From positions 6,200,001-6,264,000 of the forward strand of contig NZ_CP021978.1 in NCBI RefSeq assembly GCF_004803895.1: a stretch of 64,000 nt of DNA. Reading direction: 5' to 3'. Position numbers and translations under genes: made by a program. The DNA is from Streptomyces hawaiiensis (lineage in GTDB: Bacteria > Actinomycetota > Actinomycetes > Streptomycetales > Streptomycetaceae). The notes under the pieces were generated by a model. The model had not been told where the DNA came from. It searched no databases and worked only from the letters and a program-made list of their open reading frames with translations. Of this stretch, positions 48,387 through 63,414 are shown piece after piece (position 1 is the first letter of the stretch; each line of letters opens with the position of its first letter).

Positions 48387-49214
48387 ATGGCATTCGCCCG
48401 TACGTGTTCGGTGGCGCTGGTGGGCGTCGAGGGCGTGGTCGTCGAGGTGCAGGCCGACCTCGAACCCGGCGTCGCGGCGTTCACGCTGGTGGGGCTGCCC
48501 GACAAGAGCCTCACGGAGAGCCGGGACCGGGTGCGCGCCGCGGTCGTCAACTCGGGCGCGGCCTGGCCCCAGAAGAAGCTCACGGTCGGCCTGAGTCCGG
48601 CCTCGGTACCGAAGTCCGGCAGCGGCTTCGACCTGGCCGTCGCCGCGGCCGTGCTGGGCGCGGCGGAGCGCGTCGACCCGCGGGTGCTCGCCGACATCGT
48701 GATGATCGGCGAACTCGGGCTGGACGGGCGGGTGCGGCCGGTGCGAGGGGTGCTGCCGGCGGTGCTGGCGGCGGCCGACGCGGGCTATGAGCAGGTGGTG
48801 GTGCCGGAGTGCGCCGCCGCCGAGGCGTCCCTCGTGCCCGGCGTGTCGGTGCTGGGCGTCCGCAGCCTGCGGCAGTTGATCGCCATTCTGGCCGACGAAC
48901 CGGTGCCCGACGAGGAGCCGGACGAGCAGGGCCGCCCGGACCCCTTGCTGGCCGGGCTGCGCATGCCCGGGACCGGCGCGGCCACGGGCATGCACAGCGT
49001 CGGCGCGGCCCAGCACGACCACGGCCATGACCTGGCGGACGTCGTCGGGCAGACCTCGGCGCGCACGGCCGTGGAGGTGGCCGCAGCGGGTATTGGTAAC
49101 CCCAGCTATCGGAACCTGAGGAATAGCTTGGCTGCCTGGCTGGAGGTCGGCCCAGCGCGCGGGCCAAAGAGCATTATGGGCAAACCCGGATGTATGGGCT
49201 GGTCGAGCTGCTGA
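48387..49214 (+). pseudogene. comM: comM (YifB/Mg-chelatase-like ATPase), 5' fragment interrupted by island
   Basis: ComM family proteins are about 500-540 aa with an N-terminal domain then an AAA+ Mg-chelatase ATPase domain. Here the N-terminal part is intact (MAFARTCSVALVGVEGVVVEV, GLSPASVPKSGSGFDLAVA, IGELGLDGRVRPVRGVLP), and homology continues to TARTAVEVAAAG at about residue 235. Beyond 49091 the sequence no longer resembles ComM: the expected Walker A region is replaced by IGNPSYRNLRNSLAAW and a short tail ending at 49214. The ATPase half is missing, so ComM is inactivated here unless the rest lies at the far end of the island. Confidence 0.9.
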
Positions 49215-49417
49215 GCATAAATCTCAACCGTACGGACGCCCCGTTGGGCATGAGGACCTTGACTCGGTGCGCAGGAGCGAGGGATCGGAGCGCTGCTTCA
49301 CCGAACCGAGGCTGTGCACAGTGCCCCATGAGCGCCTTGTTGGCAGTTCCTACCCGTCACGCTGCTCACCCATGGGACGATTCTCCTTGAACATTGGCTA
49401 TCTGTTCGGGGGCTTCA
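49092..49417. other. Left-end noncoding segment of island
   Basis: About 325 bp from the comM junction to the methylase start. It should contain the methylase promoter and any left attachment half-site. I see no convincing gene and no clear inverted-repeat terminus. Confidence 0.5.
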
Positions 49418-52400
49418 GTGAACGACGGCGTGCAGCATCTAACTGGTTTGGTCTGGTCCGTCGCTGACCTTTTGCGCGGCGACTATAAACAATCCGATTA
49501 CGGGAAGGTTATCCTGCCGTTTACTGTGTTGCGCCGACTGGAGTGCGTACTAGAGCCAACGCGCGACAAAGTTGCGGATCTCTCTGACCAGTATGAGGAC
49601 AGCGAGATCGTCCCGAAGGGTCTCCTGCAGCGTGCCTCTGGACACGTCTTCTACAACACGAGTCACCTGACGCTGAGGGGAATCGCCTCGGATCCGGAGA
49701 ACACGGCGAAAAATCTTCAACTCTACGTCAGGGCATTCTCGGACGAAGCTCGCGGGATTCTGGATCGCTTTGATTTCGACGGGCAGACTCGGCGGCTGGA
49801 CGGCGCTGGACTGCTCCAACATGTGACCGGTAAATTTGCCGATCTCGATTTGCGCCCTGATGTTGTACCCGATCACAGAATGAGCATCGTATTCGAGGAG
49901 CTCATTCGCCGGTTCGCGGAGCACTCCAATGAGACGGCCGGTGAGCATTTTACCCCGCGTGATGCCATCAGGCTGACAGTAAATCTTTTGGTTTCTCCGG
50001 ATAGCGATATCGTCACCGCTCCAGGCGCTGTCCGCACTGTCATGGACCCGGCGTGTGGCACGGGCGGAATGCTTAGCGCTGTCGAGGATCACATTAAGGA
50101 GCTGAATCCAGATGCGACCGTCGACGCGTACGGGCAGGAGCTTAACCCAGAGTCGTGGGCTATCTGCCAGTCGGATTTCTTGATCAAGGGAAAGAGCCCA
50201 GGCAATATTGCGTTCGGTGATTCCCTTACCGATGATGGGCATGCGCAGCGAAAGTTCGACTACCTCCTTGCTAATCCCCCATACGGCATTGAATGGAAAA
50301 AAGCAAAAGAAGAGGTCGAGCGCGAGCACCAGCACCTCGGGGCGTCCGGCCGCTTCGGCGCCGGACTGCCGCGTATCAACGACGGCTCGCTTCTATTTCT
50401 TCAGCACATGATCTCCAAAATGAAGCCGGTAGACGTGAACGGGGAGGGAGGTTCCCGCGTCGCGATCATTTTTAACGGATCACCCCTGTCAAATGGTGCG
50501 GCCGGATCGGGCGAATCGGAAATCCGGCGATGGATACTGGAAAATGACTGGCTGGAAGGAATCGTCGCCCTTCCGGAACAGTTGTTCTACAACACTGGCG
50601 TTTTTACATACCTCTGGATTATCACGAATCGCAAGACATCTGACCGTAAGGGCCGAGTGGTCTTGCTGGATGCGCGTGACGAGTGGCAGAAGATGCGCAA
50701 GTCCATGGGGGATAAGCGTCGGGAAGTAGGCAACGAGCACGTCCGTGCGATCACTGAGCTATACGAACAGGCGCTGGAGGTTGCGCAAGACCCCAAGAGC
50801 CCACGTCATGCCAAGGTGAAGGTCCTCCACAACGAGTACTTCGGGTACCAGCAGGTCACGGTGGAGCAGCCATTGAAGCTCCGCTTTGAGGCCAACGACG
50901 AAACGCTGACAGCGTTGGCAGCGGCGAAGCCGGTACAGAGGCTTGAAAAGAGTGAGCAGTTCGTGGCGGCCGTGAGGACACTGCGGGGCTCATCCTGGGA
51001 CACTCAGCCGCAGGCGCTGACGGCGATGAAGAGGGTCGTGGCGGTGGCTGGCCTGAGTTGGCCCACAGGAGGACCGTTCGCCAAAGCAGTGCGTGACGCG
51101 ATTGGTGTACGGGACCCAAGAGGCGAAATCCAGCGAGTGAGAGGGGTGGTAGAGGCAGACGCGAAGTTGCGTGAGTACAAAAGGATTCCCCTGGGCGCGG
51201 ATGTCGATGACTACCTCGCGCACGAGATCAAACCGAAAATCCCGGACGCATGGATCGACCCGGCCAAGACCAAGACGGGCTATCAGATCAGACCGGAACT
51301 GTTTTTCGTGGCCCGCCTCAAGGCTACCTTTGAACCGCTCGAAGAGTTCTGTCGCCTTGTGACTGAGAGAGTCGGACCCCAAAACAGCGAAACCGAGGAG
51401 TCGCCCGAGGACGCAAACTCCTACTTGAAGGAGAAGCTGCGCTATCTGCGAGCTCAAGATCTTCACGTGGTTGATTCTGCTCTGGAGATTCCTTCTCCGC
51501 CTGAAGGAATAACTGCGCTGACGCCGTGCGCCGGCGGTGACATCGTGGGGCGGTCGGGAAGCTGGCGTCTTCTACCTCAGCTATTCGGCCAAGCTGTCAC
51601 ATCCCTGATCGTCCTTCGCCCTCAGGATCCAGGGACCGGTAGAGCCCTCTGCGAGTGGCTGAATTCCCCAGCAGCTACGAAGCAGTTGCCCGCAGGATCT
51701 GACCTGATGATGCTGCCGGTTCCTGTCGACGTTGTCCGGGCCGAGGAATTTGACGATCTCCTCGAGAATGTGCAGTCCGCCCGACACAGGCTCCGGGCCG
51801 CGACATCTGATCTGCTGCCGAACGTATTCTCAGGAGCAGACTCAAATATTCAAGAGCTACGCAGGACCATACAGGCGGCTGATGCTGAGGCGCTATTGAT
51901 TGGTGGACTGACGCAGGCACTCGAAGATCCAGTATCGCGGGCAGAATGGAGCTACCCATTTCATGTGGCAGCACTGGCCCGAAGGTACCGAATCAGCAGT
52001 ATTGCGCCAAGTACCCATCCGGCGGAGCGAATGGATTCCCTGCTGAAGCTCGGGGAAGGTATCGCGCGAACACTCGGGATCATCGCCCTGGCAGAGTTGG
52101 CGCAGGCTGACAAGGAAGAGTTCCTCAAGACTTTGAGGCAGAAATTTCGATCCGGCGCCACCTTCGGCACATGGACGACGATTCTTGGCTGGCGGGCCGC
52201 ACCAGGGGCGATCCTAGATCCTGACGCCCGCGGGGATGCACACTTGCTGCTTAGAGGGATCAAGGAATTCAGAAATAGTGGGTCAGCCCATGCTCATGGC
52301 GTGCGTGAAATGCACGAGATCGGCGACGCTGCAGATGAACTTGAACACCTCGTCCTGCGGACCCTTAGATCGGTATCTTGGCTCGCCACTACGCATTGGG

Positions 52401-52708
52401 ATTGGGTCGAGCGGTGCGAGTACCTCGATACGGCCTCTTTCAACCTGGTAAAGCAGCGTCTCCGTGGGAGCCACCCGGCTTGGGAACCTCTTGAGGAGTC
52501 CAGTCAGCGCCCGTTGAGACCCAAGCGCATCTACATAGGGAATGGCCCTACAAAAGCGCCGCTCGACCTTTGGCCCCTGGCGTCCGTGGACGTATGCTCC
52601 GATTGCAAGACTCGCGAGCTATTTCTCGTTGATAAAGTAGAACAGGGCGTGCTGACGCTGAAGAGCCTGAGAGATCATCCCAAAGAAATTACATATCCAG
52701 ATCTCTAG
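49418..52708 (+). CDS. Type I-like adenine methylase fused to HEPN-like C-terminal region
   Basis: 1,096-aa protein. Residues about 1-470 form a HsdM-type N6-adenine methyltransferase: YGKVILPFTVLRRLECVL, FTPRDAIRLTVNLLV, DPACGTGGML (SAM motif I, 210-219), and NPPYG (catalytic motif IV, 286-290). The rest is not HsdM: a middle region without a recognised family, then about 870-1000 a helical segment with RNSGSAH (Arg952 to His958) resembling a HEPN active site. A tail follows with CSDC and LFLVDKVEQG. No hsdS or hsdR follows. GTG 49418 has GGGGG upstream; a TTG eight codons earlier is less likely. GC is low for Streptomyces, so it is probably transferred. Confidence 0.88.
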   Translation: MNDGVQHLTGLVWSVADLLRGDYKQSDYGKVILPFTVLRRLECVLEPTRDKVADLSDQYEDSEIVPKGLLQRASGHVFYNTSHLTLRGIASDPENTAKNLQLYVRAFSDEARGILDRFDFDGQTRRLDGAGLLQHVTGKFADLDLRPDVVPDHRMSIVFEELIRRFAEHSNETAGEHFTPRDAIRLTVNLLVSPDSDIVTAPGAVRTVMDPACGTGGMLSAVEDHIKELNPDATVDAYGQELNPESWAICQSDFLIKGKSPGNIAFGDSLTDDGHAQRKFDYLLANPPYGIEWKKAKEEVEREHQHLGASGRFGAGLPRINDGSLLFLQHMISKMKPVDVNGEGGSRVAIIFNGSPLSNGAAGSGESEIRRWILENDWLEGIVALPEQLFYNTGVFTYLWIITNRKTSDRKGRVVLLDARDEWQKMRKSMGDKRREVGNEHVRAITELYEQALEVAQDPKSPRHAKVKVLHNEYFGYQQVTVEQPLKLRFEANDETLTALAAAKPVQRLEKSEQFVAAVRTLRGSSWDTQPQALTAMKRVVAVAGLSWPTGGPFAKAVRDAIGVRDPRGEIQRVRGVVEADAKLREYKRIPLGADVDDYLAHEIKPKIPDAWIDPAKTKTGYQIRPELFFVARLKATFEPLEEFCRLVTERVGPQNSETEESPEDANSYLKEKLRYLRAQDLHVVDSALEIPSPPEGITALTPCAGGDIVGRSGSWRLLPQLFGQAVTSLIVLRPQDPGTGRALCEWLNSPAATKQLPAGSDLMMLPVPVDVVRAEEFDDLLENVQSARHRLRAATSDLLPNVFSGADSNIQELRRTIQAADAEALLIGGLTQALEDPVSRAEWSYPFHVAALARRYRISSIAPSTHPAERMDSLLKLGEGIARTLGIIALAELAQADKEEFLKTLRQKFRSGATFGTWTTILGWRAAPGAILDPDARGDAHLLLRGIKEFRNSGSAHAHGVREMHEIGDAADELEHLVLRTLRSVSWLATTHWDWVERCEYLDTASFNLVKQRLRGSHPAWEPLEESSQRPLRPKRIYIGNGPTKAPLDLWPLASVDVCSDCKTRELFLVDKVEQGVLTLKSLRDHPKEITYPDL

Positions 52709-52895
52709 CCTCCGTCCTTCATGAAGTACGGCCTGAGGAAGGGATCGATCAGGGTAGATCGCCACCATTTCCCGTGCTGTCGAGTACCGGGCTCAGCGCC
52801 GTCGCGCCAAGGCCACGCTGCCCGTCCCCGCAGGCCTCGCCACTGTCATTGGGGCAGGCATTGTGGCTTAGGGCTTGCGGGAATCAACGCGTTGG

Positions 52896-53028
52896 TTTGA
52901 TCTTGTTGCTGGTTGTGCTCCGGGCCTGGGCGACCGATGGGGTCGTCGCGGGCAGAATGACGATGCCCTTGCCTTCAGCAACCGCCTGTTCTTCAGGAGC
53001 GTGCGATGGCGGTGCGGCTGGTGGCGGC
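52896..53028 (+). repeat. Left arm of imperfect inverted repeat
   Basis: Matches the reverse complement of 53966-54112 with one internal 12-bp gap. A 44-bp perfect core spans 52924-52967 (starts GCCTGGGCGACCGATGGGG). The flanking words GATCTTGTTGC and GCAACCGCCTGTTCTTCAGGAGC also match. Neither arm encodes a recognisable protein now; one frame of the right arm ends in a stop after NKIKTTC. Confidence 0.75.
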
Positions 53029-53102
53029 GACCCCGCCGCGTATTGCCGTCGGGGGCCAGAGAGTTGGTGAGGTCGTCCAACACCTTGATGATCTGCAAGC
53101 CC

Positions 53103-53861
53103 TTAAGCTGAAGGCTGACCACCGAGGTAGTTCCACCAGGCCAATACCAGACTGCGAACGAAAGCCTCGCCCTCGGCCAGGTTCATCGTCCGTTTCGGAA
53201 GTCCAGCCCCGGTAGCCCTTGCATGACGCGCATCGCTGCCACTCACATCAGGTCGATTAGCTGATGCCGTAAACGCAGACAGATCACCACTGGACACCCA
53301 CTGCGTCGCCTTGAGTTGCTTATCGCCTCCCACGTTGCCACGCACAATTTCATAGACCTTGTAGAGATCAACCCAGGTTAGCGAAACGCTTGACCTGCCC
53401 AGGATTTCCAGAGTCTCGGCCACATCGACGTGGCTCGACGCCAACTGCATGTATGGCGGTCCTTCTGGCGGTGATGGGGGCGGGGGTTGAGATGGTGGCG
53501 ACTGTCCATCACCCACTGACAGAACTACGCCGTACGCCTTGGACCGAACCACAGCGGTGTCAGCCTGCACAATATGGTGACGCCGCCTGTTACCCGTGCC
53601 GTCATCCTCCACGAAGGTGCCGGGCAGACTGACGGGCCGAAAGCTGCTGTCCAGGACACGTGCCACCCCTGTCACTCGCTGGAGAAGGTGAGTAGCCGCC
53701 TCGAACAACCGCCCACCGTCGTTCATGAGGCCGACCAACTCAGCCGAGTTCAGGTAGTAGCCGTCCTCCTCCTTGCTAACCCTCGGGTCGCCCTCGCGGA
53801 AGAGTTCCACCAAGGCATCTAGATCGAAGGTATGGCCCTCTAGCTTTGCCTTTACCGCCAT
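53103..53861 (-). CDS. Conserved hypothetical protein between inverted repeats
   Basis: 252 aa. Features: TFDLDALVELFREGDPRV at the N-terminus, a Pro-rich linker (about 125-137, QPPPPSPPEGPP), a helical segment SVSLTWVDLYKVYEIVRGNVGG and FTASANRPDVSGSDARHARATG, then AEGEAFVRSLVLAWWNYL. ATG 53861 has AGGAGG seven bases upstream, a very good ribosome site. I have seen similar hypothetical proteins in actinobacterial accessory DNA but cannot name the function. It is bracketed by the inverted repeats at 52896 and 53966, suggesting it moved as a unit. Confidence 0.72.
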   Translation of the reverse strand: MAVKAKLEGHTFDLDALVELFREGDPRVSKEEDGYYLNSAELVGLMNDGGRLFEAATHLLQRVTGVARVLDSSFRPVSLPGTFVEDDGTGNRRRHHIVQADTAVVRSKAYGVVLSVGDGQSPPSQPPPPSPPEGPPYMQLASSHVDVAETLEILGRSSVSLTWVDLYKVYEIVRGNVGGDKQLKATQWVSSGDLSAFTASANRPDVSGSDARHARATGAGLPKRTMNLAEGEAFVRSLVLAWWNYLGGQPSA

Positions 53862-53965
53862 GCCGCCTCCTCTCACAATCTATTTTGCGCTGACCAGCCA
53901 TGGCTTTCACGCTGGTCAGGCAGGCCGCATCGCCCTGGCCGCCGAACTCCTAGCCGTACCGTTCG

Positions 53966-54112
53966 CCACCAGCTGTACCGCCATCGCATGCTCCTGAAGA
54001 ACAGGCGGTTGCTCAAGGCACACGGCATCGTCATTCTGCCCGCGACGACCCCATCGGTCGCCCAGGCTCGGGTCCACGCCCAAACGAGCACACCCGGCAA
54101 CAAGATCAAGAC
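53966..54112 (-). repeat. Right arm of imperfect inverted repeat
   Basis: Inverted relative to 52896-53028; contains the same 44-bp core and an extra ~12 bp near the outer end. A direct word GATCTGCAAGCCCTTA also occurs close to both arms (53087 and 54123), so the two arms share a short common border. Confidence 0.75.
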
Positions 54113-54170: not shown

Positions 54171-55403
54171 TCACCGATCTTCTTCCGGGGCTTCGGTACG
54201 CGATTCGATGCCCGCCGTGACGATTTCCCCGCGGTTGCTCAGGGAGAGGCCGCAGAAGGGACAGGAGAAGGACTCGACCGTTCCGACGTCGACAACCCCG
54301 CCAGGGTGGATACACGACTGCGCCCACTCATCGCAGCGGCAGGGTACGGGGCTGAGGTCCCCGTACACGTTGCCGGCGTAACCGCAGGCCGGGCACTCAC
54401 GCCACCACACGTGGTCACCGCTTGCCCGACTGCCTATCAGGCAGCCTCTTTGGTCGAGATAGATCAGCATGTCAACTAGGGGCATATCGCGGTGGCGACC
54501 CTGCACGTCGACGAGTCCAGCGATGACACCTGAAGCGATCATGACCTTGACCGTTACAGCAGTATGGAACCGCTGCATGACGCCAGGGTCCTCGTGGGAG
54601 GACAGCGATGCAGGGAGCGGGAGCACTCCGTACTCTACGAGCAGCCTCTCGGCGGCTTGCCCGGCTTGGGATCCCTCGATCCGTAGTGCAGTGACCAGTG
54701 CAGCGTCCAGCGCAGTGCGGGTGACATCCCCTTCGAGCTCTCTGGACATTGTGGCCTCGTCCCAGGAGGCGGCTTCAATGCCTGTGCTGAGGGCTACCGA
54801 GACACCTGAGCGGGCACGCTCGCGCGCGGCGAGTGCAAGTTGTTGGGCCAAGGGTTCCAGAAGAGGCCGTTCGGCCGGCCCTGCGGGGGCGGGCACGGAG
54901 GCAACCTGGCTTAGATCTGCGAAGACGCTCGTGTATTCGCCCCAGAAGTCAGCTGGGTCCAGGCCTAGCTCGGCGCGGACAGACTCGACGACCTGGACAC
55001 CCGTTTCGATGACCTTCCTGACGGCCATGTCATCGAGGTAGGCAGAGTGCGCAACGCCGTTGCGGGAGTCAGCGAATGGCCGAAAAGTCCGTTCATTCAC
55101 CGGCATACGGCCGCGCATGAAGACGGCTGCAGTCTTGAAGGCTTCGAGTATGCCGATGGTCCTTGCCTCAGAGAGAGGCTTGACGCCGTTCGCATCCCCG
55201 TGGCCAAGAGAGTGAAAACGGAAGGACTGGTCACCCTTCTCAGCGATCAACAAGGGGTTGTGACGGCACAGCAAGGCCTTGAGGATGTGCTCGCATCCGA
55301 CACCAGCGTGTAGGACAGCGAAAGCGTGGTTCCCTTGGCGCCACGAGTCCAGGGACGCGCGCAGGAACCGGCTCGCCATCTCGGTGAAAGTCTTCTCGTT
55401 CAA
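54171..55403 (-). CDS. HEPN-like protein with C-terminal zinc ribbons
   Basis: 410 aa. N-terminal helical domain with AVLHAGVGCEHILKALL and SRNGVAHSAY, giving Arg114-x4-His119, the HEPN ribonuclease pattern. The middle (about 190-300) is unfamiliar. The C-terminus has CPACG, CRC, and CPFCG cysteine pairs, at least two zinc-ribbon-like sites. HEPN proteins in defence islands are often toxins or RNases; function here is inference. I use a TTG start at 55403 because GAGGGGG lies just upstream; the frame is open further. It is 230 bp downstream of the PIN gene's stop on the same strand. Confidence 0.72.
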   Translation of the reverse strand: MNEKTFTEMASRFLRASLDSWRQGNHAFAVLHAGVGCEHILKALLCRHNPLLIAEKGDQSFRFHSLGHGDANGVKPLSEARTIGILEAFKTAAVFMRGRMPVNERTFRPFADSRNGVAHSAYLDDMAVRKVIETGVQVVESVRAELGLDPADFWGEYTSVFADLSQVASVPAPAGPAERPLLEPLAQQLALAARERARSGVSVALSTGIEAASWDEATMSRELEGDVTRTALDAALVTALRIEGSQAGQAAERLLVEYGVLPLPASLSSHEDPGVMQRFHTAVTVKVMIASGVIAGLVDVQGRHRDMPLVDMLIYLDQRGCLIGSRASGDHVWWRECPACGYAGNVYGDLSPVPCRCDEWAQSCIHPGGVVDVGTVESFSCPFCGLSLSNRGEIVTAGIESRTEAPEEDR

Positions 55404-55680
55404 GTTTCCCCTCCCCCTCAACTCGATCTTGACTCAGTGGTCGCACCCTCGTCCAGCACGGGTCCTGTTGGGCCTCCGGGGGGGCATCCCAAGTCGAGGG
55501 TCAGCGTCGTGAACATTGCGTGGGCTTACACCTCGTCGGCACGTCGTCCGTGAAGTCGCCGGCCGCGCGCAGGGGCCAGGTCGGCGGACGGGTCAGCCAC
55601 AGGGCGCAGCGGTACGGGCGCAGCATCGGAGGCGGCGGTGGCGGGGGATCCGGCCGGGACCGGAGCTGACCAGTTCGCGT

Positions 55681-56895
55681 CTACGCATCGTCTTCTTCGT
55701 CCGCCAGTACGGCCTTCAGCCGCCGCTCCAGGGCACTCTGTCGAGCCTGCTTCACCAGCGCCCCTTCGTAGGCCCGAGGAAGTCCGCGCGGCGCAAGCTT
55801 CTTGATCGCTGGAGCGAGCATCAGAATGACGTCGGCTAGCGGGGCGAGCGAAATGACTGCTTGGTTGAGCCCGAGGGACATGAACTCCTCGGAGGAAAGT
55901 GGGAGGGGCAGGTCGTAGCGGAGGATCGTCAAGCGGGGGTTGGCGGCGTCCGGGGTGAACAGGACAGACGTGGTCCAGGACGAGCCTGCGGAACCGGCAC
56001 TGAAATCGCCGTCGCCGAAGTAGGCGATGCCAGAGATACGCCACCGGACGACGGCCGTGTACCACTCGTGCTCGCCGATCCGGTACGCCCGGAGCTTGTC
56101 CACGGAGCGGAGCGACGCCCTGACCGCGACCCAGCCCGCAGCGGACATAACTGCCGTCTCCTGCCCGACCTCGCGGCCAAGCGTCGTGCACGGGAAGGTC
56201 TCACTCAAGGCGCCGAGGCGCTTCTCTGCCGCCTCCCCCATGCTGATGAGCACCGTTCGTGAGCCGAGGATCTCGGCCGCGAGAACCTCGTCTGTCTCTG
56301 TGCGCTTCGTAAACCGTTCGATCACCTCGTCGAGCTTCGTGAAGTGAATGAACCGGTCGCCGAGGTCAGCGACATCCTGGTCCATCGGCGGGGGATACCC
56401 GCTGCCCTTCCCGAAGTCCGTGGTGTTGCCGCTGACGAAGCAGACGGTCTCCTCGCGGTGCTCGCGGGCGTACTCGATCGCCGAGAGCCAGATGACGGCG
56501 TCCCTCGTCCCGGTCTTGTTCCTTCCCTGCTTCTTACAGGGCGGGAGAGCGTTCGCTTCGCGGAAAAAGGCCGCTTGCATGGCCGCTGGGCTCGGCGGAA
56601 GTGTCTCTACGAGAGTCCCGAACGCCGCAGTCCAGTGCTTCCGGACGCGTTCGACGTCGGGCTTCTCAACCTGATACCTCGGTTTCCACGGCGTGTGGCG
56701 CGCGTAGTTGGCCAGCGCCGCGGCTGCCGCGTCGTGGCCTTCTTGGTGGCTGAGGACCCGTTGTGCGAGGAGTTCCTCCGCCACCATCCAAGGAATGGCG
56801 ACGCGTTCGCCGACGGCGCGCAGCGCCCGCAGCAGGTCGGCGCTGCTGTCGTCCAGGCTGAGACCCCGGACGATGCACGCATCGAGAATGATCAC
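55681..56895 (-). CDS. PIN-domain nuclease-like protein
   Basis: 404 aa from GTG 56895 (GAGG upstream); a GTG 12 codons earlier would add IQISDQIEAQS. The PIN fold's acidic quartet is visible: MIILDACIVRG (Asp5), WMVAEELL (Glu40/41), TRDAVIWLSAIEYA (Asp132) and SGNTTDFG (Asp160), with a 1,000-type PIN_8/DUF4935-like layout. The C-terminal 200 residues are a separate domain without a known name. PIN enzymes cut RNA or DNA; this may be a defence effector. Preceded on the same strand by an HxlR regulator. Confidence 0.83.
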   Translation of the reverse strand: MIILDACIVRGLSLDDSSADLLRALRAVGERVAIPWMVAEELLAQRVLSHQEGHDAAAAALANYARHTPWKPRYQVEKPDVERVRKHWTAAFGTLVETLPPSPAAMQAAFFREANALPPCKKQGRNKTGTRDAVIWLSAIEYAREHREETVCFVSGNTTDFGKGSGYPPPMDQDVADLGDRFIHFTKLDEVIERFTKRTETDEVLAAEILGSRTVLISMGEAAEKRLGALSETFPCTTLGREVGQETAVMSAAGWVAVRASLRSVDKLRAYRIGEHEWYTAVVRWRISGIAYFGDGDFSAGSAGSSWTTSVLFTPDAANPRLTILRYDLPLPLSSEEFMSLGLNQAVISLAPLADVILMLAPAIKKLAPRGLPRAYEGALVKQARQSALERRLKAVLADEEDDA

Positions 56896-56965
56896 GCTCT
56901 GAGCCTCTATCTGATCTGAGATTTGGATCACAGAGTCTCAGGTATTGCCCCTCGGCGCACCGGAC

Positions 56966-57298
56966 TTAAGCGTTGAAGGGGGACTTCGCTACCTCGCGCA
57001 GGCGGGTCAGAGCGGCAGCAACTTGTTGGCCGAGGTCGGTGAGCCGGTAGGTGATGCTGACCGGCCGGGTCGCTGTCACGTTCCTGGATACCAACCTGCG
57101 TTCCTCCAGGTCCGCAAGGCGGCTGGAGAGCACACGGTTGGAGATCCCGGTGACGGCTTCCTGGATTTCGCCGAATCGTCCCGAGCCGTCGGCGGTATGC
57201 AGTGCTAGCAGGATGTGCATCGTCCACCGGGCCGAGAGAGTCTGAAGAAGGTCGCTCTCGGCCCGGGTCAGCGGGGTGCTGCGGTTGCCGGCGGTCAT
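56966..57298 (-). CDS. HxlR-family regulator in island
   Basis: 110-aa winged-helix regulator: LSARWTMHILLALH, FGEIQEAVTGISNRVLSSRLADLEERRLVSR and VSITYRLTDLGQQVAAAL are HxlR features; the usual N-terminal Cys is absent. ATG 57298 has GGAAGGAG nearby. It lies between herA (29 bp) and the PIN gene (70 bp), all on the minus strand, so it probably regulates its own cluster. Confidence 0.86.
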   Translation of the reverse strand: MTAGNRSTPLTRAESDLLQTLSARWTMHILLALHTADGSGRFGEIQEAVTGISNRVLSSRLADLEERRLVSRNVTATRPVSITYRLTDLGQQVAAALTRLREVAKSPFNA

Positions 57299-57327: not shown

Positions 57328-59541
57328 TTAGAAGGGGGGCTCCTCTTCAGTCTTTACGGTGTCAAAGAGCTTGGCGTCGTTCTTCGTGTCCGCTTGCGGC
57401 TCAGACTTCGGAGCGTGTTCCTTGAGCATGACCCACTTGCGGGTTTCGGTGCTGCCGGGCTCCGTCCGCGGTACGGACTCCCAGTTGCCGGGGTAGAGAC
57501 GATCCAATGCCTCCTTGACCAGGCCAAATCCCCAATCCTTCGCCGAGTCGGTGCGCTGTGCGTGAGCAGGCGCCTTCTCCGCGAGCAGGAAGCCGATCCG
57601 GCCCCACTTGATCCCTTCAGGGGTCTGGATCTTCCGCTGGAACTCGGGTTTGTCCCTGAGGTGAGCAATAGCGATGGCGGTGTCGTCGGCCGCCGGGGCG
57701 TCACCGTCGTCGGGGGTGGGTCCTTCGTTCTGGGGGTGGCTGGCGGCCAGGCTGGCCGAAGCGGCCCGTGCTTCGGAGCGGCGTTCCTCGACGGCGGTGC
57801 GGGCCTGGACGGCGAAGCTGGCGGGGGCAGGGAGCGCGTAATCGGGATCGGCCATGTTGTAGGAGTCCTCGAAGCTGAGGACGCGTACGGAGACAGGGTA
57901 CGGACGTGAGTGGCGGTCGGTGCCGGGCGCGCTGGACCAGTAGATACCGTTGCCGACGAGAGGCTCGTTGAGGAGGGTGGCTAGGAGGTCCTCGGAGAAG
58001 TGGGCGTTGGCTTTCTTCAGGGAGATCAGGTCGCCTTGGGACAACAGGTGGAAGACGAAGAAGTTGTCGCCCTGGCTGAGGAGCTCCTGCGGGAGGCTGC
58101 CCGGCTGCTGGGTGATCAGCAAGGCCCCGAGGTCGTACTTGCGGCCTTCCTTGACCCAGGAGACGAAGGGGCCGTCCTCGCTCTGGCTGGAGCCGCCAAG
58201 GACGGACTGAGCCTCTTCGATGACGGCGATGGTGGGGATGGACTTCGGCTCGGCCTCGGTGAACTGGTTCTGGTTGTGCTCGAAGATGTCGCCGAGGATC
58301 ACGCCGGCGAGCTGGAGTCCCTGAGAGCCGCGCATCTGGGAGATGTCGACGACGCACAGCTTGCCCTGCGACAGGCAATCCTTCAGAGCGCTGAGCAACT
58401 GGCTGTCGGGGTCGTGCAGAGCGTTGACAACACGGGTCATGTTTCCGATTGCCGCGTTGGTCTCCGCCTCCTGGCTCTCGCCGAGCTTGAGGATCTCTCG
58501 AACCTCGTCGCGGTCGGCGCCGTACTTGTCGCGGTGGATCAGGTCAACGAGGCGGCTCCACTTGGGGCCGCTGAGGGACTTGAGCTTGACGACGTTCTGC
58601 TGGTCCTGCTTCTCCGGCGGCAGCGCAATGCCCAGGACACGGGAAGCCTGCAGCTCCTTGATGTTCATCTTGACGCCGTTGACGACGAAGGACTGGTAGA
58701 AGGGGCTGGGACCCTTGCGGTTGGTGAAGACGACGAGCTTATCGCGCAGATGGGGAACGTCGCACAGGGCTGGGCGGCCCTTGAAGTCGGGCCAGAAGTA
58801 CTCGCCGTCCGGGTCGAAGATGATCGTGCCGACCGGCGCTTCGCCGTTACGCCGCGGGACCTTGGGCTGGTCCTCGTACAGGGCGGAGAAGAGCAGCTTG
58901 ACGAGGTTGGACTTGCCGAAGCCAGCGCGGGCGAAGACGAAGCTGCGGCGGGCGACGAGCTTGTCGATCTGGAAGGTCGGCATGATGGTGGGCTGCTGGA
59001 TCTGCATCCAAGAGGTGTCGCCGACGCGCTTGTCGTTGCCGGCGTAGACGAACTCGCCGAAGGCGAGGTAGCCAATGGGGACCGCTCCTCCGTCGGTGTC
59101 GTTGGCGTTGACGACCTCGGCGAGCAGGTCGTCGCCCAGCAGCGCGACCTGGGCACCGACGTGCGGGAGGCGGCGGTGGCTGGGGACGAAGATGTACTTG
59201 TCGCCTTCCTGGCGGAGCACGCCGAGGATGCGGATGTCGACTTTGTACTTCAGGTAGCGCTCACGCAGTTCGTCGGGGATAGGCCGCTGGTCGCGCACGG
59301 CGCGGGTGGCGTAGTCCTCGCCGATGGGAGAGACGAGGCGCCCCTGGGAAGAGATGGTGGTGATACGTCCGAGGATCGCCTCCTGCTCGTGTTCGAGCTG
59401 GACGAGGACGAATTGGCCGTGCATGGCCATAGTCTGAAAGTCGTCGTGGTGCGGCAGGACGAGGTCGGCGTGGAACTCCATGCCGCTTTCGGCGAAGCCG
59501 CGGAAGGTTCCGACGATCTTGTCGCGCTCGAACAGGCTCAT
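57328..59541 (-). CDS. HerA-family hexameric DNA translocase/ATPase
   Basis: 737 aa. N-terminal HAS-barrel region (about 1-110), then an FtsK/HerA ATPase: Walker A FARAGFGKSNLVKLL (204-217; Arg/Ala replace the usual Gly residues), FDPDGEYF, Walker B IPTIAVIEEAQSVLG (about 440), and LLITQQPGSLPQELLSQGDNFFVFHL, the sensor/arginine-finger region. The C-terminal 150 residues are acidic and unlike HerA. HerA works with NurA to resect DNA; the nurA gene is immediately upstream (42 bp) on the same strand. ATG 59541. Confidence 0.93.
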   Translation of the reverse strand: MSLFERDKIVGTFRGFAESGMEFHADLVLPHHDDFQTMAMHGQFVLVQLEHEQEAILGRITTISSQGRLVSPIGEDYATRAVRDQRPIPDELRERYLKYKVDIRILGVLRQEGDKYIFVPSHRRLPHVGAQVALLGDDLLAEVVNANDTDGGAVPIGYLAFGEFVYAGNDKRVGDTSWMQIQQPTIMPTFQIDKLVARRSFVFARAGFGKSNLVKLLFSALYEDQPKVPRRNGEAPVGTIIFDPDGEYFWPDFKGRPALCDVPHLRDKLVVFTNRKGPSPFYQSFVVNGVKMNIKELQASRVLGIALPPEKQDQQNVVKLKSLSGPKWSRLVDLIHRDKYGADRDEVREILKLGESQEAETNAAIGNMTRVVNALHDPDSQLLSALKDCLSQGKLCVVDISQMRGSQGLQLAGVILGDIFEHNQNQFTEAEPKSIPTIAVIEEAQSVLGGSSQSEDGPFVSWVKEGRKYDLGALLITQQPGSLPQELLSQGDNFFVFHLLSQGDLISLKKANAHFSEDLLATLLNEPLVGNGIYWSSAPGTDRHSRPYPVSVRVLSFEDSYNMADPDYALPAPASFAVQARTAVEERRSEARAASASLAASHPQNEGPTPDDGDAPAADDTAIAIAHLRDKPEFQRKIQTPEGIKWGRIGFLLAEKAPAHAQRTDSAKDWGFGLVKEALDRLYPGNWESVPRTEPGSTETRKWVMLKEHAPKSEPQADTKNDAKLFDTVKTEEEPPF

Positions 59542-59583
59542 GATGGTTCGTGACTCCGCAGGATTCAGAACGGGCAGGGTGCG

Positions 59584-60708
59584 TTACTCGTAGCGGCGGG
59601 CGGCCACATCGGAGGCCAGTCGCAGGGCGTCGATGACCGGGGCCTTGTCCTCGCCGACTTGGTCACGGACGGCGTCGACGAGCTGGTCTTCGATGATGTC
59701 CATGTCCAGGTCGGCGACGCGGGAGTAGCTGTCGGCCTGCTGGATGCAGTTCGGGTAGAACGGGATGGGGAAACCGGCCACCGCGTCAGCCTGCAGGTAG
59801 CCGAAGATCGCCTGGGCCTCCTTGTCCTGGCGGGACATGACGTCCACAGTCCAGATGGGGTCGCCAGAGTGCGGGCCGAAGCGCACGAAGTACATCGATC
59901 CAATGTTGAACTTCGGCTTCTCGCCCGTGGAGTCGTCCTCGATGTCCCGGGTGTATTCGTCCCAGAGGTACACCTCGTCCAGCATCGCGGCGGGGACCTT
60001 GGCGAAGCAGGGGGAGCCGTTGTTGAACACCCCCGAGAGCGACATCGCCAGCCGGTAGTACTCCAGGACCTGGGTGTTTTTTGCCAGTCCCACCAGCCAC
60101 ACCTTGCGCCGGTCCTGACGCCGGATGCGCTCTATGGCGTCATGCATCAACCCACCCATTTTTACGAACAGTTCGCCCTTGAAGATCTTGGCGCGGAGCA
60201 GGCCGTCGCGGACGATCAGCGTGTCGACCGCGTAGTCGCGGTGGCAGATGAGGTCGTACAGCGTGGCCCACTCGCACAGGTCGCGGAAGACCTGCACCCA
60301 GCTTGGGGACTTGCCGGACATCATCGGCGAGAGGTCCTGGAGGCGTTCGACGCCCAGGCCGTGCATCATCCGGCCCAGCGCGGTGCGAGGGCTGCCGTCC
60401 TCGTGGAACTGGTGGCGGCCCAGGGCGTCGATGTCGGAGATCGGGGAGACCACCTCCATGCACAGCTCTTTGCCGCTGGAGTCCACGACGCGAACGACCT
60501 GGAGGTAGAAGGGGTTGAAGGCGACCTTGTTGTTGCCGCCGTCGGATGCCATCAGCGCGACCGATGTCGCCGCCCGCGGCTTGATCACCCTGACCTCGGA
60601 GCGGATGGCGTGGGTCTGCTCGACCAGCTTGTCCAGCTCCGCGCGGCCGGCTTCGACCTGTTCGCCGATCAGTTGCTTGAGCTGCTTGATCTGGTCCGCG
60701 TCGAACAT
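59584..60708 (-). CDS. NurA-domain nuclease
   Basis: 374 aa with the NurA family arrangement: ASDGGNNKVAF (Asp56), LIVRDGLLRAKIF (Asp168), WLVGLAKNTQVLEYY, SMYFVRFGP and GFPIPFYPNCIQQADSYSRVADLD. NurA is a DNA exonuclease/endonuclease that the HerA hexamer threads DNA into. Start ATG 60708 has GGGGAG upstream. Operon with herA. Promoter region holds a TGAGTG-GTT-CACTCA palindrome 38 bp upstream, a possible operator. Confidence 0.92.
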   Translation of the reverse strand: MFDADQIKQLKQLIGEQVEAGRAELDKLVEQTHAIRSEVRVIKPRAATSVALMASDGGNNKVAFNPFYLQVVRVVDSSGKELCMEVVSPISDIDALGRHQFHEDGSPRTALGRMMHGLGVERLQDLSPMMSGKSPSWVQVFRDLCEWATLYDLICHRDYAVDTLIVRDGLLRAKIFKGELFVKMGGLMHDAIERIRRQDRRKVWLVGLAKNTQVLEYYRLAMSLSGVFNNGSPCFAKVPAAMLDEVYLWDEYTRDIEDDSTGEKPKFNIGSMYFVRFGPHSGDPIWTVDVMSRQDKEAQAIFGYLQADAVAGFPIPFYPNCIQQADSYSRVADLDMDIIEDQLVDAVRDQVGEDKAPVIDALRLASDVAARRYE

Positions 60709-60745
60709 GCGCTTCTCCCCAACACCACGCTCTGACTGTCACAGG

Positions 60746-60760
60746 TGAGTGGTTCACTCA
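60746..60760. promoter_or_regulatory. Palindrome upstream of nurA
   Basis: TGAGTG-GTT-CACTCA, perfect 6-bp arms with a 3-bp spacer, 38 bp before the nurA start. Candidate repressor site for the nurA-herA transcript. Confidence 0.5.
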
Positions 60761-60816
60761 TCTGGCCCACACAGCATGCCACGGGGCACTGACAATCAGT
60801 TATGAAGTTGTGGGAA

Positions 60817-60829
60817 GTAACCGGGTTAC
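60817..60829. promoter_or_regulatory. GTAACC-G-GGTTAC palindrome
   Basis: 13-bp perfect palindrome just downstream of the methyltransferase stop and 109 bp upstream of nurA. Its GTAA/TTAC ends match the operator at 61968, so the XRE regulator may also act here; that is inference. Confidence 0.4.
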
Positions 60830-60833
60830 CTGT

Positions 60834-61964
60834 TCAGCGGGGCAGTCCGACCAGTTCGGCGATCAGGTCGATCTCGTCGACGGCGGAGCCGGCCTTGCCG
60901 AACTGCTCGGCCTGCCGCGTGCGCTTCGGCGGAACGCCGGCCTGGCGGACTTCCCTGACGACCCATCCGGCCTTCGCCTCCTTCACGGAGGCCACCAGCA
61001 TGGCCTCCGGGTCGGTGCGGGCCGAGGGAAGGGCTCCGAAGCGGATCGCGAGCCGGGCGCCCTGGTTGCAGCGGCGGGCGGCGGCGGCCCATACCTCGGC
61101 AAGCGCCTGGATGAAGGACTCCTGGTTTGGCTGGCGGGCGATCTGCCCGTGGGTGCCGTAGGGGACCTCTGCAGGGCCGCCGAGAAACCAGGAACGCAGC
61201 CACTGGTCGGCCACGTAGGTGCGCATGCCGTAGTACGGAGGCGAGGTGACGACCAGATCGAACTTCTGTCGTAGGCCGTTGAGGGTCGCGACGGAGTCAC
61301 CCAGGTGGACCTTTCCGCCGTGGGCGAGCGGGGCCGCGTCCAGCAGTCGTGCGGCCCGCCGCTCGATGACCTCCAGGGTCGGGACGCGTACCGGCTTCAT
61401 GCCGCGTGTGGACCAGTACTTCACCGCGTAAGCGGGCTTGGAGGCGTAGGTGCGCGGCATCTGGTTCGACAGGTACGAGGGGAGGTTCTTGTTGCGGGGG
61501 CCGTGCAGGATGCCCAGCAGGACCGCCCGCAGCATGGCCGACGTAGGCGTGGTCATCTCCAGCAGTACCTCGCGCAGTGTCACCAACTCGCGCAGCGTCT
61601 CCCGCTCGAAGCACCACTGCCAGAAATCGCCCTCGGGTACTTCGCCCCGAGAGTCGCCGTCGAGGATCTGCTGGGCGAGGCGGACCACCGCGCCAGGTGT
61701 GACCTGGATGAGCTTCGCCTGGGCGATGGCGGCGGCCACCGGATTGATGTCGATGCCCACCGACGGCAGTCCTGCCAGGCGCGCGGCATACAGCGTGGTG
61801 CCACGTCCGCAGAACGGGTCCAGCACTCTGGTGGCCTCGGGGTGGGCGGCGAGCTGCTGGAGCGGGAAGTCCAGCGGAAACATTGTGTAGTACGGGCAGA
61901 CGGCGTTCAGCCGCAGCGCGTCCTCAGGCCAACTGGGGGAAGGGGCCGCCGCGTTCACCGTCAT
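60834..61964 (-). CDS. DNA methyltransferase (N4-cytosine/N6-adenine amino type)
   Basis: 376 aa. SAM motif DPFCGRGTT (49-57) precedes the catalytic TSPPYYGMRTY (240-250); NINPVAAAIAQAKL-type text follows motif I (GIDINPVAAAIAQ). The order motif I then catalytic motif, with about 180 residues between, resembles the alpha-like amino-methyltransferases; the intervening region would hold target recognition. It can modify DNA alone, giving self-protection for the NurA-HerA nuclease downstream. ATG 61964 overlaps an operator-like palindrome, suggesting a leaderless transcript. No second restriction endonuclease is seen beside it. Confidence 0.9.
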   Translation of the reverse strand: MTVNAAAPSPSWPEDALRLNAVCPYYTMFPLDFPLQQLAAHPEATRVLDPFCGRGTTLYAARLAGLPSVGIDINPVAAAIAQAKLIQVTPGAVVRLAQQILDGDSRGEVPEGDFWQWCFERETLRELVTLREVLLEMTTPTSAMLRAVLLGILHGPRNKNLPSYLSNQMPRTYASKPAYAVKYWSTRGMKPVRVPTLEVIERRAARLLDAAPLAHGGKVHLGDSVATLNGLRQKFDLVVTSPPYYGMRTYVADQWLRSWFLGGPAEVPYGTHGQIARQPNQESFIQALAEVWAAAARRCNQGARLAIRFGALPSARTDPEAMLVASVKEAKAGWVVREVRQAGVPPKRTRQAEQFGKAGSAVDEIDLIAELVGLPR

Positions 61965-61967
61965 GGG

Positions 61968-61989
61968 GTAATGATACAGGTATAGTTAC
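61968..61989. promoter_or_regulatory. Divergent leaderless promoters with shared palindromic operator
   Basis: 22-bp palindrome of the form GTAA-n2-ATAC-n2-GTAT-n2-TTAC filling the 29-bp gap between divergent start codons (61964 and 61994). On the plus strand TATAGT lies 7 bases before the XRE ATG; on the minus strand TATCAT lies 6 bases before the methyltransferase ATG, so both mRNAs would start at or next to their start codons. Binding by the XRE protein would affect both genes. Confidence 0.7.
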
Positions 61990-61993
61990 ACCC

Positions 61994-62296
61994 ATGTCAC
62001 GGAGGAGGCTTGATCCCGACGCACGGCGGCGCGGGCAGATGCTGGCCTCCCGCCTGACGCAGGCCCGGCGGAACTCCGGGCGCTCGGCCGAGGCCGTCGC
62101 CCGCAGTGCGGGGATCTCCGTCGAGACCGTGCGGAGTATCGAAAAGGGACGTACGTCCACACCAGAGTTCTTCACCGTCGCCGCTCTGGCCACCGAGCTG
62201 GGAATTTCGCTCGACACGCTGTACGCGTCCGTCCGCCTGCCTCCCCGAAGCGATCTTCACGCTGCCGACAACCCTAGCGTCGACACCTCGGACTGA
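61994..62296 (+). CDS. XRE-family regulator, controller-protein-like
   Basis: 100-aa helix-turn-helix protein: LASRLTQARRNSGRSAEAVARSAGISVETVRSIEKGRTSTPEFF contains a HTH_3 domain, with FTVAALATELGISLDTLY following. Divergent from the methyltransferase with a shared palindrome in between, as in controller proteins of type II restriction-modification systems. The C-terminal tail is short and polar. Role as controller is inference from position. Confidence 0.88.
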   Translation: MSRRRLDPDARRRGQMLASRLTQARRNSGRSAEAVARSAGISVETVRSIEKGRTSTPEFFTVAALATELGISLDTLYASVRLPPRSDLHAADNPSVDTSD

Positions 62297-62790: not shown

Positions 62791-63414
62791 TCAGGTCCGG
62801 CGTGGCAGTCTCGCCTGCGGCCAATCCGCTTCGAGAAGCAGGTCGAGCTTCTCGGCGTACGCGAAGAGCAGCCTCGCATCCTCCTCGAGGTCCTCAAGGG
62901 TGCAGACTATGTTGGCGCCATCCTGCTTCCTGAAGAAGCGGGAGCGCATGACGCCCACGCCGTCCCAGTTCCACCAGGAAGCGTGAACGGCATCGTCACG
63001 GCGGCGCTTGAGCTCGTTGACCTCGCCCCACTCAAGGATCTCGGCGAGTGCGGTGGCCTGTGGAATGCTCCTGCGGGATTGCGCCACCAGCAGTTTGTGA
63101 AGGTCGGACCATGTTTTGTCGACGAGCGAGAAGCCGCCCTGCTCGTCTCTCAGTAGCAGTATGAGCCGCTTCATGGCCGCCTCGACATGGCCGCCGGCGA
63201 CCACGATGGCGCCGATCAGCCCGTAGAGGCGTTCACGGTAAGCGAGGTCGGCTTCGTCCGGGCCTCCGTGGCGCCCGACCCTGAAGGTGGAGATGTCCAC
63301 GCTCGACCGGGCTCTGGGGGTGGTGATGTCCAGGTCGAAAGACGGTCCACCGTCCAGCTGTGTGCTCATCCGGTAATGGAAGGAGTGCCCGGGCGGGGGC
63401 CATTCATCTGACAT
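62791..63414 (-). CDS. Hypothetical protein with HEPN-like motif
   Basis: 207 aa from ATG 63414; the same frame is open to a GTG at 63639 that overlaps the stop of the upstream wHTH gene (GTGA), so a longer, translationally coupled 282-aa form is possible. The first 55 residues are low-complexity; then a helical domain (about 58-205) with GLIGAIVVAGGHVEAAMKRLILLL and RRRDDAVHASWW, giving Arg139-x4-His144 of HEPN type. Function unknown; HEPN proteins are often RNases or structural partners in defence modules. Confidence 0.65.
   Translation of the reverse strand: MSDEWPPPGHSFHYRMSTQLDGGPSFDLDITTPRARSSVDISTFRVGRHGGPDEADLAYRERLYGLIGAIVVAGGHVEAAMKRLILLLRDEQGGFSLVDKTWSDLHKLLVAQSRRSIPQATALAEILEWGEVNELKRRRDDAVHASWWNWDGVGVMRSRFFRKQDGANIVCTLEDLEEDARLLFAYAEKLDLLLEADWPQARLPRRT

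Follow-up and report, generated by a model that had tools for sequence, protein, structure and literature searches.

The closest described relative of the cassette considered here is TdpABC, attributed to An et al. 2025 (Nat Chem Biol 21:1160), which is reportedly a phosphorothioate-based defence of thermophiles and has the structures 8wet, 8wfd and 8y1k. The cassette lies on the minus strand of a 64,000-nucleotide stretch of the Streptomyces hawaiiensis genome (contig NZ_CP021978.1, positions 6,200,001 to 6,264,000), hereafter the window, and consists of genes for a DNA amino-methyltransferase, a NurA-like nuclease and a HerA ATPase, in that order. TdpA and TdpB are the closest solved relatives of the cassette HerA and NurA-like proteins, and both systems show a compact design of modification combined with a translocase-nuclease. 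However, a TdpC-type sulphur modification gene was not found, and its place in the cassette appears to be filled by an S-adenosylmethionine (SAM)-dependent amino-methyltransferase. Judged from sequence and structure comparison, the cassette probably represents a methylation-based, restriction-modification-like defence with a translocating nuclease effector, or 'Tdp with methylation instead of sulphur', and we put the probability of this reading at roughly 75%.

Parts of this design are found in other described systems. SIR2-HerA (Nezha) and DUF4297-HerA also combine a HerA-type hexameric ATPase with an effector enzyme in phage defence, whereas the effector of the cassette is a NurA-type nuclease, with a methyltransferase in addition; Pfam and PADLOC find neither a SIR2 nor a DUF4297 domain in the window cassette or in the genes around it. 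A preliminary description of the window had named HerA modules with SIR2 or DUF4297 as kin, a place that falls to TdpABC instead. With canonical HerA-NurA, the archaeal and bacterial end-processing nuclease, the cassette shares a two-protein architecture and DG metal-binding-type motifs, but differs in a nuclease that is missed by the Pfam NurA family, in the linkage to a methyltransferase, and in a patchy distribution on islands. BREX, DISARM and other methylation-guided systems likewise use a methylase to mark self and leave restriction to a machine of several proteins, not to a simple endonuclease; unlike in those systems, PglZ, BrxC and DrmA/B/C are not part of the cassette, and PADLOC finds none of PglZ, BrxC, DrmA, DrmB or DrmC among the ten main proteins at 49-64 kb of the window. 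Type II restriction-modification resembles the cassette in its DNA methyltransferase gene, but no restriction endonuclease profile in Pfam or PADLOC points to a separate ATP-independent, site-specific endonuclease in the cassette, where the nuclease partner is HerA-NurA. For MADS, Mad2 and Mad8 fall below the family cut-off (weak matches only, at 1e-8 for mad2 and 4e-11 for mad8), and NCBIfam antiphage_MADS2 does not match the cassette methylase. Circularly permuted cytosine-N4 methylases occur in CxC-DndE defence systems (Rakesh et al. 2024, PMC10853773), in which a permuted N4-methylcytosine (m4C)-type methylase replaces phosphorothioate modification in a defence operon. These systems resemble the cassette in that replacement, but in place of HerA-NurA they are based on DndE and a DndD-like ABC ATPase, and NurA is unmentioned in PMC10853773.

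The trio itself is undescribed in the literature searched on combinations of HerA, NurA, methylase and Tdp, a search that stopped short of the Tdp paper, Iyer 2004 and bioRxiv preprints, and no profile of PADLOC, NCBIfam or Pfam names it as a system. Within that scope, the earlier impression that no named system has this gene set holds. The cassette is not filed here as a member of Tdp, as a sulphur-modification gene was not found by a scan of the loci for PP-loop motifs (on the assumption that TdpC is a PP-loop protein); the scan returned a PAPS_reduct gene about 6.5 kb away at one related locus (L090) and one chance-like frame. A true Tdp identity by way of a co-occurring sulphur gene is disfavoured on that scan, with L090 the only case and the gene there not adjacent, and no sulphur-transfer gene lies among the neighbours of the window cassette. 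At L090 (2548-7773), HerA-NurA stands without a methylase, and a PAPS-reductase-like and DUF4007 module lies some kb upstream.

The methyltransferase, HerA and NurA-like genes form a conserved, co-inherited unit. A NurA profile scan of 84,980 species genomes returned 115 relatives, the best 80 of which were examined. More than 15 phyla of bacteria are represented (Actinomycetota, Bipolaricaulota, Myxococcota, Acidobacteria, Poribacteria, Planctomycetota, Bacillota, Chloroflexota, Dormibacterota, Cyanobacteria, Gemmatimonadota, Pseudomonadota, Bacteroidota, Nitrospirota, Armatimonadota, Spirochaetota and others), as are archaea (Methanoperedens, ANME-2 and Thermoplasmata). HerA is present at 77 of the 80, the remaining three stopping at contig edges, and the methyltransferase family of the cassette is present at 64. 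The possibility, raised beforehand, that the methyltransferase and HerA-NurA are never found together is thus clearly contradicted. The methylase is directly adjacent in 58 of the 63 loci with all three genes, and is found in three arrangements: upstream of NurA (22 loci), downstream of HerA on the same strand (27), and downstream on the opposite strand (9). Contig edges cut off many of the loci that lack the methyltransferase, and when whole genomes were searched, the methylase was recovered elsewhere in those of L043, L050 (same contig, about 15 kb off) and L057, so that 18 of 18 isolate genomes carry it. Protein distance matrices correlate at 0.90 for NurA and HerA, 0.72 for NurA and the methyltransferase, and 0.70 for HerA and the methyltransferase (0 of 1000 permutations). 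There is no recurring fourth partner, the next commonest neighbour cluster being present in only 8 loci.

At four loci (L050, L062, L121 and L122) the methylase stands apart from NurA-HerA. In the first two, the distance is about 15 and 9 kb, respectively, and the intervening genes are partly defence-related (TmtA-like, AAA_11/12 helicase), which gives the impression of cargo placed within the system.

The distribution of the family is patchy, with the NurA-like protein in 7 of 396 Actinomycetota genomes and 1 of 150 close relatives. A deeply divergent, adjacent trio of methyltransferase, HerA and NurA is found in another actinobacterial family (L119:5017-9544), where NurA matches PF09376 at the cut-off; the association is thus old, or has arisen more than once. 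The plasmid collection holds no NurA relative and only remote HerA matches, and among viral contigs there are only three real methylase relatives, one with the full trio. The methylase is found without HerA-NurA on a prophage-like contig (L124, 4102-7628), together with GmrSD-like and HEPN genes, and a relative of 33% identity without HerA-NurA is encoded on a contig that also bears terminase and portal-like genes (L126:8381-9475), where it is possibly a counter-defence methylase of a phage.

With regard to the individual proteins, the kinship with TdpAB is evident for both effector subunits. The cassette HerA matches Pfam DUF87 (E 1e-15), and the best solved relative of its profile is TdpA (5e-28), followed by HerA 4d2i (2e-17) and other HerA-type defence ATPases. 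The Walker A motif is ARAGFGKSN (204-212) and the Walker B region includes EEAQ (442-445); G207, K210 and S211 of the former and E442 and E443 of the latter are invariant in a 55-sequence alignment. For the NurA-like protein, Pfam, PADLOC and NCBIfam all give no match, and the Pfam NurA family, PF09376, matches nothing across the whole 8.88 Mb genome. Nevertheless, the family profile (74-sequence alignment) matches TdpB at an E of 2e-7, and a Foldseek search with an AlphaFold model (predicted local distance difference test, pLDDT, 88) returns TdpB as best by far (E 1e-11, template modelling score, TM, 0.62), with RNase H-like PIWI proteins and a Thermotoga RNase H-like nuclease (1zup) following. 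Together these matches indicate a NurA-type nuclease of the TdpB kind, although at 16-17% identity (TM 0.62) the similarity is remote. Invariant residues in the family alignment are D56, G57, G58, E146, W147, D168, G169 and K210. The three open reading frames (ORFs) thus stand with the extents and strand first given to them, and Pfam bears out the labels of methyltransferase and HerA translocase; the NurA label survives in the sense of a NurA-type nuclease, but not of the canonical end-resection NurA.

The methyltransferase (METHYLTRANSFERASE) matches Pfam N6_N4_Mtase (E 4e-10), and the PADLOC profile MTase_II, for Type II methylases, covers residues 46-316 (E 3e-18), in line with the initial assignment to amino-DNA methyltransferases, with DNA as the predicted target. 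The motif order is X-I-...-IV and TTHA0409 (2zie) aligns in swapped halves, which indicates that the enzyme is circularly permuted relative to the common beta class. DPFCGRGT and SPPY are invariant in a 65-sequence alignment, and the catalytic motif is SPPYYGMRTY, of m4C type; TSPPYYGMRTY is a kind of motif usual for N4-cytosine methylases. The AlphaFold2 (AF2) model (pLDDT 88.9) has a class I SAM-methyltransferase fold, and its fold relatives in the PDB, Escherichia coli Dam being one of the best, are all distant. Between motifs III and IV, where a region for target recognition would be expected, the sequence belongs to the conserved parts of the protein (mean identity 0.74-0.84, residues 151-180), which would be unusual for a segment that sets variable specificity. 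The candidate recognition block within the family, LHGPxxKxxPSYLSNQxPRTYAxKPxYAV, is kept from Streptomyces to archaea.

Patterns of decay and replacement, though few, fit the prediction of a system in which modification protects self. In L033, the methylase and NurA are intact, with HerA interrupted by a transposase-like insertion, and in L118 (genome G231) an intact methylase stands beside a HerA without its N-terminus, NurA being gone; in L120 (G159, of the same family as G231) the methylase has decayed as well. Effector and methylase sides are both broken in L022 and L083/L123, and no related locus shows a broken methylase beside an intact effector (never in isolates). L096 lacks the family methylase, and its slot is occupied by a canonical-order N6_N4_Mtase (4.5e-47), a replacement that points to DNA methylation as the function required.

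Defence genes surround many of the loci. An island of about 29 kb holds the window cassette and splits yifB/comM, of which the 5' part is found at 48387-49214 and the 3' part at window coordinate 77831-78793, beyond the window. Close to the far end there is a tyrosine recombinase, together with an HTH protein and an 819-aa partner (L016:11792-15713), and the island also contains a lone HsdM-like gene, a PIN_12 gene and an NB-ARC-TPR protein. Among the relatives, neighbours include DrmD with Type III M and R (L086), Type I M and R (L045), BrxC (L071), DruE (L010), TmtA (L050), and GmrSD-like and HEPN genes (L056). The GmrSD-HEPN pair seen on L124 also stands between HerA and the methylase in L056 and L059, and beside the broken copy in L083.

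Features of the cassette and its regulators, in window coordinates
Feature	Position	Strand	Basis
DNA amino-methyltransferase, 376 aa, predicted modification subunit	60834..61964	-	Pfam, PADLOC, 65-sequence alignment, AF2
NurA/TdpB-like nuclease, 374 aa, motifs D56-G57-G58, R142/E146-W147, D168-G169, K210	59584..60708	-	profile, AF2, alignment
HerA/TdpA-like hexameric translocase ATPase, 737 aa	57328..59541	-	Pfam DUF87, PDB profile matches, 55-sequence alignment
XRE-family regulator, divergent, 100 aa	61994..62296	+	Pfam HTH_31/HTH_3, orthologues
Putative XRE operator, 29-bp divergent intergenic region with near-palindrome	61965..61993	.	kept in 6 genomes
HxlR-family regulator, optional part, 29 bp after HerA	56966..57298	-	Pfam HxlR 1e-19

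How, then, might the trio function? In the first step, the methyltransferase would mark a short motif of host DNA, most likely with N4-methylcytosine and less likely with N6-methyladenine. Then, as homology to TdpAB and HerA-NurA suggests, duplex DNA would be threaded through the channel of a HerA hexamer, which acts as a pump and carries NurA-type nuclease subunits, and would be degraded. Methylated self DNA would block the complex or fail to activate it, whereas unmethylated phage or plasmid DNA would be destroyed. We favour such a system because of the co-occurrence of the trio, the kinship with TdpA and TdpB, the asymmetry of decay, the replacement in L096, the defence neighbours, the divergent trio of L119, and the patchy spread. 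The idea, put forward in the preliminary description, that a co-encoded modification enzyme would let the complex discriminate self from foreign DNA gains support from conservation across phyla, the defence-gene context and the restriction-modification-like decay. A number of observations count against this reading. The correlation of distance matrices may in part reflect species phylogeny, and the defence neighbours were picked for annotation from recurrent clusters without a background set. Four loci (L053, L076, L082 and L090), all in metagenome-assembled genomes, combine an intact HerA-NurA with the lack of a recognisable methylase, both in the vicinity and in the rest of the genome, and, if real, would mean that the effector can exist without the mark. 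In addition, the RNA methyltransferases AviRa and Trm11 score similarly in the fold search, so that the DNA target of the enzyme is a predicted one; an RNA methyltransferase is nevertheless disfavoured by the PADLOC Type II match, the SPPYxGxRxY motif and the DNA-methylase replacement in L096.

Other explanations for the same gene set can be weighed on this evidence. It is unlikely that the trio is an abortive or suicide module, where loss or inhibition of the methylase, for instance by a phage, unleashes HerA-NurA on the host chromosome and leads to addiction and cell death; the asymmetry of decay and an XRE gene with a putative operator would fit a toxic effector neutralised by modification, and restriction-modification systems can act in this manner, but ordinary restriction-modification predicts the same patterns equally. 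Even less probable is a DNA repair or end-resection module, in which HerA-NurA processes double-strand breaks and the methylase serves as a strand or region marker. End resection is the classic role of canonical HerA-NurA and the family folds are shared, but the very patchy distribution, the defence-gene context, the lack of a recurring fourth partner, and closest relatives that are the TdpAB defence effectors all speak against it. Moreover, a direct resection role of HerA-NurA itself is doubted in a study of the Thermococcus proteins that suggests defence (2026, PMC12977600). Very improbable, finally, is the chance vicinity of two independent systems, a solitary methylase and a HerA-NurA defence pair. 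The methylases that stand without HerA-NurA on L124 and L126, and the wide spacing in L050 and L062, would be expected of independent neighbours, but not the adjacency of 58 of 63 methylases in three arrangements across phyla, nor another DNA methylase in the same slot in L096.

In Streptomyces, the expression of the cassette appears to be under its own regulation. A divergent XRE gene had been proposed at the outset, and its divergence is confirmed by Pfam and orthologues, although the ORF start at 61883 is too long and the conserved start (MSRRRLD...) lies at 61994, 29 bp from the methyltransferase start. In the five nearest relatives that carry it (L009, L017, L018, L019 and L020), an orthologue is likewise divergent from the methylase, and the gap holds a near-palindrome with the consensus GGTGTAACTATAC-AG-GTATAGTTACACC, conserved in 6 genomes, whose symmetry is equalled by 0 of 500 shuffles in L018 and L020 and by 29 of 500 for the window copy. 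An HxlR orthologue directly follows HerA in L009, L018 and L020 only. From these comparisons, the XRE gene and its 29-bp near-palindromic operator would belong to the actinobacterial version only, and HxlR perhaps does too. The XRE repressor, bound to the putative operator, probably times expression in the manner of the controller protein of a restriction-modification system.

The PIN_12 gene (55681-56931, Pfam), the 'HEPN' ORF (54171-55421), for which Pfam gives no match and the HEPN label is unverified, and the genes at 62791 and 53103 have no homologue near any related locus; they were rejected as system parts, and these and other downstream genes are probably passengers. Thus, of the downstream genes first listed as possible further parts, HxlR perhaps qualifies in the actinobacterial version, whereas the PIN and HEPN genes, which are not conserved, do not. 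The HsdM-like Type I methyltransferase (49394-52708, plus strand, 1104 aa, PADLOC 777 bits) has a GC content of 0.58, with no adjacent S or R subunit in the window. The NB-ARC and TPR (STAND-type) protein of the island (L016:6775-9864, 1029 aa) has no PADLOC match at 1e-15. Similar translated stretches (WATDGVVAGRMTMP...) at about 52870-53070 and at 53873-54109 flank ORF 53103-53876 in opposite orientation, which suggests an inverted repeat or a small mobile element. The cassette ORFs have a GC content of 0.64-0.66, against about 0.70 upstream, and a GC content at third codon positions (GC3) of 0.88-0.91, a strong codon-position bias of the coding type.

If the defence reading is correct, the cassette represents a further immune system, compact with its three genes and not recognised as such by PADLOC, NCBIfam or Pfam, with carriers that include Streptomyces, Bordetella, Methylococcus, Planctomycetota, Chloroflexota, methanotrophic archaea and others. 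Immunity guided by methylation and immunity guided by phosphorothioate would then be connected by a shared effector pair, and HerA-NurA proteins, which are usually assigned to DNA repair, would gain a role in defence. The cassette would also offer a tractable route to how a translocating nuclease senses a chemical mark. From the conserved recognition-like block, one methylation motif common to unrelated carriers is predicted. More tentatively, on the same comparisons, the family might represent an unnamed, widespread class of methyl-gated translocating nucleases, in which one conserved mark is read by a TdpAB-like pump during translocation and not at a fixed restriction site.

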